Below are positions 42,764 through 46,777 of a stretch of DNA of 64,000 nucleotides, piece after piece. The stretch covers positions 4,712,001-4,776,000 of the forward strand of contig NZ_CP068595.1 of assembly GCF_016772475.1 (NCBI RefSeq). Direction: 5' to 3'. The notes under the pieces were generated by a model that was not told the origin of the DNA, searched no databases, and saw only the letters and a program-made list of their open reading frames with translations. Source of the DNA: Paenibacillus sonchi (GTDB taxonomy: Bacteria > Bacillota > Bacilli > Paenibacillales > Paenibacillaceae). The translations under genes were made by a program, and so were the position numbers. The stretch's first letter is position 1. The number at the start of each line of letters is the position of its first letter.

Positions 42764-42797
42764 ACACCGCTGATTCCGGTCAGCGGTGTTTTTTTTG
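42764..42797 (+). terminator. Intrinsic terminator; apparent target of intron copy 1
   Basis: ACACCGCTGA pairs with TCAGCGGTGT around a 6-base loop and is followed by a run of eight T. The first group IIC intron starts 14 bp after the stem, as expected for introns that home to terminator hairpins. Confidence 0.92.
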
Positions 42798-43336
42798 GAT
42801 GGCGTGCCCAGAAGTACGCATTATCTAGTTGGTGAAAGTCCAACCAAGGGAGGGACCAAGCCACCTTTGTAGCTAGGATGCTTGCATATGGCGAAATCTG
42901 TGTGTAAAAGCGCATCGACAAAAGTATCAGTCAGAGACTGGGCGAGCAACAATCCAGGCCGCAACATCAAGTGAATCCTGCCGCGTCGTCAAAAAGGCCC
43001 TGCGAAGGGGAACAGAGGGAGCCGAGTCCCGCAACTATGGACGAAGGCCAAGGAAACTGTGCAGAACTTGGAACAGCAGTGAAGAACCCTCCGGCGTAAT
43101 GGGAACGGCATGGATTGAAAGATAGTGCAGTGAACTGGGGAGACCCTCCCCCACACGGGAGAATTTTTTTTTGTAGGAACCCGTAAAGAGACGCTCTATA
43201 AGTCCAGAAGACGAAGTGAACCGTCTGTGGGAAGGGAGTCCGAGGGGCTCATAGTACCGAAGAACCTAAGGACAACATAACCTTAGGGAGGGAAGGAGCC
43301 CTGCTTTGTTTATGCTTTTGGAGGAGGTACGAGTGA

Positions 43337-44629
43337 GTGAATGCCAAAGGGCTAACGACACCAAAGGAAAAAGTTCAAGAACTCCAAGAAAAGCTAGGTC
43401 ATGCGGCCAAGGAGAACAGCAAGCGTAAATTCCATGCCCTGTACGACAAAATCCACCGCTGGGACGTGCTGTGCGAAGCCTGGAAACGGGTGAAGGCGAA
43501 TAAGGGGGCTGCAGGAGTAGATGCCGTGACGCTCGCAGATATTGAGGAACAAGGAGAAACAAGCTTCCTCAAGGCTTGCGAGAGAGAATTGAAAGAAGGC
43601 AACTACTATCCCCAGCCCGTACGGCGGCACTTTATCCCAAAGAAAGACGGGAAGCTAAGACCGCTGGGCATACCCACTGTTCGCGACCGAGTCATACAGA
43701 TGGCAACTAAGCTGGTAATTGAACCCATCTTCGAAGCAGACTTCGAAGAAGTCTCTTACGGATTTCGTCCGAAACGAAGTGCGAAAGGAGCGTTGGAACG
43801 AATTCGGAAAGCCTGCAACCGCAAAGGGAATTGGGTAGTCGACGTCGATATCCAAGGTTACTTCGACAATATTAATCAAGAGAAGCTCATGAAATTGATA
43901 CAGATGCGTATCAATGACAGGCGGATCCTGAAATTAATACGGAAGTGGCTACAGGCGGGAGTCATGGAAGAAGGAAACGTAAAGCGATCTGATTTAGGCA
44001 CTCCGCAAGGTGGCGTCATTTCACCGCTGCTGGCGAATATCTACCTGCACTACTTTGACCGATTGTGGGAGAAACACGGAAGTGGATTGGGAGAGCTGAC
44101 AAGGTATGCAGACGACTTTGTAGTGGTCTGCAAAACCAAAAAGGACGCCGAACATGCGTATGAACTCATACGCAGAATCATGGAACGTCTGGAACTCACC
44201 CTACACCCGACGAAAACCCGAATTGTAGGCTTGTGGACAGGAGACGAAGGGTTCGACTTTTTAGGAATGCACCACCGAAAAACGAAAGCAGAAACTTCTC
44301 AAGGGAAGGTATATTATACCACGCAACAGTGGCTAACGAAGAAGGCAGAGGAACGGATCCGAGGCGTGGTCAAAAACAGATTAGCACCGCCGAGCATGCG
44401 CTCAAGATCGTTCGCGGAACAGGTGGAATGGCTCAATCCAAAAATTCAAGGATGGAGAAATTACTACTACACGAACTATAGCCAAAAGAGGTTAACTAAG
44501 CTGGATTGGTATATTTTGCAGAGATTAACCCGGTGGTATGCGAAGAAGAGACAACGTAGAAGATGGATGAGTTCATTATCTGAGGTTAAGTATATTGCCA
44601 ACATGTATGGACTGAAAACGCTATTGTGA
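43337..44629 (+). CDS. ltrA: Group II intron reverse transcriptase/maturase, copy 1
   Basis: A 430-residue protein from a GTG start 9 nt after GAGGAGG. Reverse transcriptase blocks: [74 protein letters not shown] and the catalytic YADDFVVV. A maturase/thumb (X) domain follows ([19 protein letters not shown]). There is no C-terminal HNH endonuclease domain, as usual for class IIC, which therefore relies on single-stranded or hairpin targets. It assists splicing of the intron RNA and copies it into DNA. All catalytic residues are present. Confidence 0.95.
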
Positions 44630-44658
44630 TCTGCATGCCCATGAATGACAAACATCGG

Positions 44659-44692
44659 AAAGCCGTATGAGGGAAAACCTCACGTACGGTTT
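44659..44692 (+). ncRNA. Group II intron domain V, copy 1
   Basis: A 34-nt hairpin beginning AAAGCCGTATGAGGGAAAAC, with the AGC catalytic triad near the 5' base, a GAAA-type tetraloop and the complementary arm CTCACGTACGGTTT. It is the catalytic core of the ribozyme. Domain VI follows directly. Confidence 0.9.
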
Positions 44693-45267
44693 GATGAGGA
44701 GGGGCTGGTTTAAATCCAGCCCTTTACTCTAGGCGTGCCCAGAAGTACGCATTATCTAGTTGGTGAAAGTCCAACCAAGGGAGGGACCAAGCCACCTTTG
44801 TAGCTAGGATGCTTGCATATGGCGAAATCTGTGTGTAAAAGCGCATCGACAAAAGTATCAGTCAGAGACTGGGCGAGCAACAATCCAGGCCGCAACATCA
44901 AGTGAATCCTGCCGCGTCGTCAAAAAGGCCCTGCGAAGGGGAACAGAGGGAGCCGAGTCCCGCAACTATGGACGAAGGCCAAGGAAACTGTGCAGAACTT
45001 GGAACAGCAGTGAAGAACTCTCCGGCGTAATGGGAACGGCATGGATTGAAAGATAGTGCAGTGAACTGGGGAGACCCTCCCCCACACGGGAGAATTTTTT
45101 TTTGTAGGAACCCGTAAAGAGACGCTCTATAAGTCCAGAAGACGAAGTGAACCGTCTGTGGGAAGGGAGTCCGAGGGGCTCATAGTACCGAAGAACCTAA
45201 GGACAACATAACCTTAGGGAGGGAAGGAGCCCTGCTTTGTTTATGCTTTTGGAGGAGGTACGAGTGA

Positions 45268-46560
45268 GTGAATGCCAAAGGGCTAACGACACCAAAGGAA
45301 AAAGTTCAAGAACTCCAAGAAAAGCTAGGTCATGCGGCCAAGGAGAACAGCAAGCGTAAATTCCATGCCCTGTACGACAAAATCCACCGCTGGGACGTGC
45401 TGTGCGAAGCCTGGAAACGGGTGAAGGCGAATAAGGGGGCTGCAGGAGTAGATGCCGTGACGCTCGCAGATATTGAGGAACAAGGAGAAACAAGCTTCCT
45501 CAAGGCTTGCGAGAGAGAATTGAAAGAAGGCAACTACTATCCCCAGCCCGTACGGCGGCACTTTATCCCAAAGAAAGACGGGAAGCTAAGACCGCTGGGC
45601 ATACCCACTGTTCGCGACCGAGTCATACAGATGGCAACTAAGCTGGTAATTGAACCCATCTTCGAAGCAGACTTCGAAGAAGTCTCTTACGGATTTCGTC
45701 CGAAACGAAGTGCGAAAGGAGCGTTGGAACGAATTCGGAAAGCCTGCAACCGCAAAGGGAATTGGGTAGTCGACGTCGATATCCAAGGTTACTTCGACAA
45801 TATTAATCAAGAGAAGCTCATGAAATTGATACAGATGCGTATCAATGACAGGCGGATCCTGAAATTAATACGGAAGTGGCTACAGGCGGGAGTCATGGAA
45901 GAAGGAAACGTAAAGCGATCTGATTTAGGCACTCCGCAAGGTGGCGTCATTTCACCGCTGCTGGCGAATATCTACCTGCACTACTTTGACCGATTGTGGG
46001 AGAAACACGGAAGTGGATTGGGAGAGCTGACAAGGTATGCAGACGACTTTGTAGTGGTCTGCAAAACCAAAAAGGACGCCGAACATGCGTATGAACTCAT
46101 ACGCAGAATCATGGAACGTCTGGAACTCACCCTACACCCGACGAAAACCCGAATTGTAGGCTTGTGGACAGGAGACGAAGGGTTCGACTTTTTAGGAATG
46201 CACCACCGAAAAACGAAAGCAGAAACTTCTCAAGGGAAGGTATATTATACCACGCAACAGTGGCTAACGAAGAAGGCAGAGGAACGGATCCGAGGCGTGG
46301 TCAAAAACAGATTAGCACCGCCGAGCATGCGCTCAAGATCGTTCGCGGAACAGGTGGAATGGCTCAATCCAAAAATTCAAGGATGGAGAAATTACTACTA
46401 CACGAACTATAGCCAAAAGAGGTTAGCTAAGCTGGATTGGTATATTTTGCAGAGATTAACCCGGTGGTATGCGAAGAAGAGACAACGTAGAAGATGGATG
46501 AGTTCATTATCTGAGGTTAAGTATATTGCCAACATGTATGGACTGAAAACGCTATTGTGA
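45268..46560 (+). CDS. ltrA: Group II intron reverse transcriptase/maturase, copy 2
   Basis: Identical to the copy-1 protein except for one residue: Thr to Ala in [12 protein letters not shown], near the C-terminal end, from A to G at 46426. It keeps YADD, all reverse transcriptase blocks and the X domain, and also lacks an endonuclease domain. The start is the equivalent GTG 9 nt after GAGGAGG. Both copies therefore look functional and could act in trans on each other. Confidence 0.95.
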
Positions 46561-46589
46561 TCTGCATGCCCATGAATGACAAACATCGG

Positions 46590-46623
46590 AAAGCCGTATG
46601 AGGGAAAACCTCACGTACGGTTT
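46590..46623 (+). ncRNA. Group II intron domain V, copy 2
   Basis: The same 34-nt catalytic hairpin as in copy 1, with no base change seen. Confidence 0.9.
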
Positions 46624-46777
46624 GATGAGGAGGGGCTGGTTTAAATCCAGCTCTTTACTCTAGTAGGCTGCACTGTAGCGGTTTCAATTTTCTGGTTCCA
46701 ATTATTTAGAATTTGTGATATTATTTATGCGAACTTACGTTCTTAAGATCAATCCCCGACGAAGGGTGGACCTTACA

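Follow-up and report, generated by a model that had tools for sequence, protein, structure and literature searches.

How two nearly identical group IIC introns came to lie end to end behind a single terminator is the question raised by this locus of Paenibacillus sonchi, which was analyzed within a window of 64,000 nucleotides (the whole stretch of DNA under analysis). An initial annotation had described two stretches of 1924 bp that start 1931 bp apart with three differences between them, and this description was confirmed, with the differences at positions 285, 1692, and 1918 in its numbering. The intron ends that it had assigned were displaced. A comparison of 11 copies, with which the empty sites of relatives agree, places the true start (GC) 2 bases earlier and the true end (TCTAG) 5 bases later. 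All 11 copies in the genome with an intact 3′ end begin with GCGTGCCC and finish with CTCTAG; GC stands ahead of GTGCCC and TCTAG behind TTTAC in each of them, and the bases outside these ends vary from site to site. With the ends corrected, the 7-bp spacer TCTAGGC that had been placed between the copies vanishes, as those bases are intron, and the period of 1931 bp is the intron length itself. The junction between the two copies is an exact head-to-tail abutment with 0 bases between them, and 3 substitutions distinguish one copy from the other. The match to the Rfam model RF00029 stops at 44732, the last base of copy 1; in copy 2 it extends one base beyond the intron, to 46664. It is very likely that the tandem is real, an uncommon arrangement of a known element.

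42802-44732, plus strand: group IIC intron copy 1 (W1), GCGTGCCC...CTCTAG, 1931 bp, with a derived A at intron position 1694
44733-46663, plus strand: group IIC intron copy 2 (W2), 1931 bp, abutting copy 1, with T287 and T1920 in common with the copy at G000:C1:4831041

The assignment of both copies to group IIC was borne out by Rfam matches above the gathering scores, to RF02003 with 88 bits in each and to RF00029 with 53.0 and 54.6 bits, and by an open 430-aa RT/maturase frame in each copy. The RT/maturase matches TIGR04416 with 457 bits and, in Pfam, RVT_1 and GIIM only, with no Pfam match to an endonuclease domain. Domain VI folds into a helix of 13 bp from which an A bulges out, seven bases from the 3′ end of the intron, the position at which the branch point is usually found. 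The following features were located within the two copies.

43337-44629, plus strand: RT/maturase ORF of copy 1, 430 aa, RVT_1 and GIIM
45268-46560, plus strand: RT/maturase ORF of copy 2, an open frame of 430 aa
42947-42950, plus strand: probable EBS1 of copy 1, CAAC, assigned from its pairing with 5′ exons
44878-44881, plus strand: probable EBS1 of copy 2, CAAC, located by eye at the offset that it has in copy 1
44658-44732, plus strand: domains V and VI of copy 1, with the bulged A at 44726, the seventh base from the 3′ end
46589-46663, plus strand: domains V and VI of copy 2, with a C-to-T change in the domain VI stem that gives a G-U pair

When set against the class C boundary consensus quoted in PMC4028801 (5′ GUNYGCC..., 3′ CCUACYCGAU), GCGUGCC and UUUACUCUAG align in register but depart from it in having C as the second base and G as the last, and also at other 3′ positions. 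The subfamily represented here (42802-44732 and the family copies) has GC...AG ends compared with the GU...AU of that class consensus.

Class C, or group IIC, introns are described as inserting behind intrinsic terminators (Robart 2007, as cited in PMC4424553 and PMC3522654). Terminator homing, as the initial annotation had invoked it, is supported at this locus, where copy 1 sits behind a terminator-like hairpin and T-run.

42764-42801, plus strand: 5′ exon, with an intrinsic-terminator-like hairpin (stem 42764-42789), a T-run, and the probable IBS1 GATG (42798-42801); found by the terminator scan and by the empty site in G048 and G026
46664-46700, plus strand: 3′ exon, TAGGCTGC..., which directly follows the 5′ exon where G048 and G026 have the site empty

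Folding revealed a hairpin of this kind with a T-run at 33 further sites of the family, the weakest being L016 (-1.1 kcal/mol). Immediately upstream of copy 2, the sequence is intron. Copy 1 does lie behind the terminator hairpin and copy 2 behind the domain VI stem, as had been noted, but the distances change with the corrected ends: copy 1 starts 12 nt past the terminator stem instead of 14 bp, and copy 2 starts 10 nt past the 7-bp core stem instead of 12 bp, which is 3 nt past the end of the full domain VI RNA helix.

Related genomes contain the site free of introns. In the relative G048, the dimer site is uninterrupted and reads GGATG/TATGC (the slash marks the junction), compared with GGATG/introns/TAGGC in the window. 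The site is also uninterrupted in G026, where a few bases directly at the junction differ; G030, the third relative aligned, matched downstream only and is uninformative on the junction. At the site of a triple array in the same genome, described below, G048 is uninterrupted (GGTTG/GGCGCG), as are G030, whose alignment ends 6 bases past the junction, and G026, in which one base ahead of the junction is changed and gaps follow the junction. The comparison thus covers three relatives for each of the two sites; other flank matches were partial, and at the single-copy site L018 the aligned relative G048 matches only to 3 bases short of the junction. The near-identical dispersed copies, together with these empty sites, suggest that the intron is mobile.

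Pairing between EBS1 and IBS1 was compared across sites. At seven recent sites of this genome, 3, 3, 4, 4, 4, 4, and 3 of the 4 possible pairs form. In the wider set, only 1-2 of 4 pairs form at 14 of the 28 native sites with a readable EBS1 (a putative element throughout, and unread in 6 rows), which indicates either that loose sites exist or that EBS1 was misread in some relatives. G is the first base of the 3′ exon in 6 of 27 distinct 3′ flanks, or in 5 of 26 when the tandem junction is left out.

The genome (7.78 Mb in 3 contigs) contains ten near-identical full copies of the intron, one 87% copy with a deletion, and one 225-base fragment. With the fragment set aside, the copies occupy eight sites, and two of these are multiple: the dimer in the window and a trimer. 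The latter consists of three abutting copies (T1 to T3) behind another terminator (C1:3965269-3971059; locus L015, G000:C1:3964271-3972054). The middle RT ORF alone is open; T1 and T3 carry small indels. The fragment (L021, G000:C1:5789906-5790130) is the 5′ part of a related intron, with a terminator-like stretch upstream, an intact 5′ junction, and no 3′ part.

The substitutions that distinguish the copies were polarized with relatives, which have C287 in 7 of 7 covering rows, G1694 in 7 of 7, and C1920 in 9 of 9; some of these rows share one genome and one row is the 87% copy. L017 has the ancestral state at the variable positions. The derived A1694 occurs in W1, T1-T3, L014, L016, and L018, and T287 and T1920 occur with the ancestral G1694 in W2 and in L019, which is 72 kb away. 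Judged by these substitutions, W1 and W2 belong to two different derived sublineages, and such a split fits two insertions. The probability of finding ten recent insertions on at most seven distinct sites by chance was calculated with an equal-site model, which gave P values of 0.29 for 20 sites, 0.03 for 50, 0.005 for 100, and 0.0006 for 200. A loose pattern for usable sites returned 201 matches, some of them overlapping, compared with 154 for its control, so the P values are a guide only.

Exact abutment is compatible with four routes, namely, re-insertion at the terminator, insertion behind domain VI, a template switch by the RT, and recombination. Our leading proposal, to which we assign about an even chance, is that two full-length mobile IIC introns of different sublineages inserted successively at one terminator, the order and the route being the conjectural parts. 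Most site-specific mobile introns block their own site by occupying it, and introns of other classes have longer homing sites that are split by insertion. What a IIC intron recognizes lies mainly upstream (a hairpin, a T-run, and a short IBS1), only a single base or so (IBS3) being read downstream, and the first insertion would leave such a target nearly intact. A second RNP could then reverse-splice exactly at the 5′ exon/intron junction, and the expected result would be a seamless head-to-tail array with the newer copy adjoining the terminator. Since it is the upstream exon that IIC introns read, an occupied terminator would stay a target and new copies would stack on the terminator side. 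The elements in question appear in the structure of a IIC RNP as presented in PMC10190682, with four contiguous IBS1 pairs and one from the spacer, one IBS3 base, and the stem upstream.

Several findings are consistent with re-insertion at the terminator. The zero-spacer junction is what re-insertion at the exon/intron boundary requires, and exact abutment is repeated three deep in the triple array. Occupation barely alters the triple-array site (GGTTG/GGCG when empty, GGTTG/GCGT when occupied), and at the dimer site all of the elements that are read are kept save the downstream base, which becomes G, a base that the count of 3′ flanks above shows to be tolerated at this position. Against this reading, the IBS1 of the dimer site forms just 3 of 4 pairs with the inferred EBS1, and the difference in sublineage could also be explained by a duplication followed by the spread of both copies.

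The initial annotation had suggested another target, with the hairpin and tail of domain VI of copy 1 acting as a terminator mimic behind which copy 2 was inserted. The geometry is compatible with this, as the 10 nt from the 7-bp core stem to the junction is close to the 12 nt at the terminator and falls within the range of hairpin distances. At the dimer locus, the insertion point would also be followed by the native T. Moreover, a relative's site (L084) ends with ATTAAG, which, together with the 14 of 28 native sites that pair at 1-2 of 4, suggests that a loose IBS1 is tolerated. However, the tail has only three T ahead of ACTCTAG, forms 2 of 4 pairs with the inferred EBS1 compared with 3-4 at the seven recent sites, and is absent from the list of the terminator scan that found the real terminator. 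When compared with native IIC targets, it scored -3.86 in a 5′-exon profile for which the leave-one-out range of 34 native 5′ exons is 0.8 to 18.0, although the fixed spacing of the profile penalizes a shorter T-run, so that it is not a pure IBS1 test, and sites of one genome are not independent. The input to this profile was 42 loci, L021 not among them, and the window. From these, 34 sites were used, and 9 loci yielded none, either because the start was not matched exactly or because the flank was too short. In addition, 65 copies in closed relatives have a domain VI of the same kind and the CTCTAG end, and none has an intron behind it. The occupied terminator is the better target, and we consider insertion behind domain VI to be quite unlikely. 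Template switching by group II intron RTs has been described (e.g., in PMC5566474 and PMC3280974) and could act end to end: if, during one insertion, the RT copied an intron RNA to its end and then carried on from the 3′ end of another, a seamless head-to-tail dimer or trimer would be formed in one event. This would produce the exact abutment observed and would allow for two RNAs, of the W1 and W2 types. It would also need A-type and T-type RNAs to be present together, and it leaves unexplained a pair of introns in the relative G193 that differ in state and are 2 nt apart. No dimer insertion in vivo was found in the literature searched, within searches that were not aimed at this point alone, and we regard this route as unlikely.

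Recombination could have duplicated one intron locally, or made the trimer from a dimer by unequal crossing-over, with both copies then spreading. Expansion of a dimer to a trimer by unequal crossing-over is ordinary, and with the dimer locus as founder of both sublineages the SNP pattern costs no extra mutation. The difficulty lies in the first dimer, as a single intron offers no flanking repeat from which to form it at the exact intron ends, and in the spread, as W1 must found A-type copies at four sites (the triple array, L014, L016, and L018) and W2 must found L019. Because the bases of W2 are common to a copy 72 kb away and W1 is of the other sublineage, a simple local duplication is unlikely, and recombination as a whole is rather improbable. 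An assembler might instead have placed repeats side by side, since near-identical repeats of 1.9 kb assemble poorly; the sequence comes from an assembly without reads, and the small indels in T1 and T3 could be sequencing errors. Such an error is very unlikely here, as W1 and W2 differ at three sites, the three W2 bases recur in L019, the junctions are base-exact at three places, and the genome is in 3 contigs.

Tandem junctions follow 3 of the 11 copies in this genome. Among 65 family copies in the 14 other closed (one- or two-contig) genomes of the genus with copies, the exact 3′-end pattern and the tandem pattern gave none. This rarity weighs against re-insertion at the terminator as an easy event, as more arrays would be expected if every occupied site stayed good. 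When the family was scanned with the tandem pattern, 3 of 394 genomes matched (G000, G193, and G136), compared with 1 for the control pattern; the match in G136 was rejected, as its sequence is not intron-like. G193 (L090, of the same family) has a terminator with a long T-run, an intact intron, TA, and then a decayed intron. The terminator-side intron has a 432-aa open frame and well-paired domains V and VI, and the downstream intron has no frame longer than 71 aa and a mispaired domain V. The intact copy being on the terminator side points in the same direction as re-insertion at the terminator. We infer the relative age of the two introns with caution, because G193 is a single example and movement in trans is possible for a defective intron; the gap is 2 nt and not an exact abutment, and decay is an imperfect clock. 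A general class C tandem pattern matched in 0 of 398 class genomes and also misses the arrays of this genome, as their ends do not fit that consensus; its result thus covers other subfamilies only. Several draft contigs end inside introns, so the absence of tandems from drafts says little. The pipeline outlined in PMC4028801 set aside sequences with more than one intron copy. No description of abutting IIC introns was found in the literature searched, although one may be in print.

The arrangement can be compared with known systems. It resembles the class C introns behind terminators in RNA class, in an RT/maturase without endonuclease, in the terminator target, and in boundary register; the accounts of class C introns in PMC4424553 and PMC3522654 describe insertions after terminators with no mention of abutting copies in the portions concerned, whereas here a dimer and a trimer abut. 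Bacterial twintrons, as treated in PMC4424553, likewise have one group II intron as the neighbor or host of another, but they are nested, and the introns here are side by side and both complete. In C.te.I1 of Clostridium tetani, a separate domain V/VI repeat belongs to each of four 3′ splice sites (PMC4424553, PMC3919590). This tandem resembles it in that a single 5′ splice site is followed by more than one domain V/VI unit, so that a choice of 3′ splice site is possible. In contrast to C.te.I1, every unit here is an entire intron, which in the dimer has an RT frame of its own, and no coding exons are known to be joined. In circularly permuted group II introns, an exon lies between the two parts and the outer halves are missing. 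Such introns have domains V and VI at the 5′ end and the splice sites inside (PMC8637638), and the dimer is similar in that domains V and VI of copy 1 precede domain I of copy 2; it differs in that the outer halves are present and no exon separates the copies. The same exact tail-to-head junction is found in the head-to-tail intron RNA circles reported for Ll.LtrB in PMC6248898, which are RNA of another intron, whereas the tandem is a genomic array.

With regard to splicing, what precedes the 5′ splice site of copy 2 is the CTAG with which copy 1 ends. This would be a poor IBS1, and copy 1 should therefore splice first. Copy 2 would then face a proper exon. Alternatively, the 5′ splice site of copy 1 used with domains V and VI of copy 2 would remove both introns at once. 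More broadly, we tentatively suggest, at somewhat less than even odds, that IIC introns lack target-site immunity, so that a good terminator keeps attracting insertions, head-to-tail arrays grow on the terminator side, and these hold the arrangements that splice-site choice, dimer excision, and, after loss of the outer halves and the gain of a little DNA between the copies, circularly permuted introns would require. If IIC introns leave their sites unblocked, the rules of their spread would differ from those of most such introns: several copies could accumulate at hot terminators, where a live copy would not be stopped by a dead one. Stacking would also supply tandem introns in a simple way, and these could in turn give rise to altered splicing or to circularly permuted introns. 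The element is a known one in an uncommon arrangement, and the cause suggested here differs from a domain VI mimic and is testable.

A scan of genome contigs for further tandems gave 6 stretches (L064-L069). L064, L067, and L069 were rejected, having no Rfam match at the gathering score. L066 (1180-1300, from a MAG labeled archaeal) contains a transposase-like ORF and, by eye, a domain V-like/VI-like hairpin with a group II intron directly behind it, a candidate tandem that is unconfirmed. In L068, an intron of another kind ends 15 nt ahead of an intron-like start, which lies close to where the sequence examined stops, and L065 has only the end of domain V and domain VI, at a contig start. Within the window, a small hairpin with a T-run stands ahead of each RT ORF (43146-43172 and 45077-45103); it was called terminator-like, and its fold is not unusual for its composition. 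In L018 and L019, the T-run of this intron-internal hairpin has one T fewer. Short forms of the intron family, with closely spaced 5′ and 3′ matches, occur in relatives (L073, L099, and L104).
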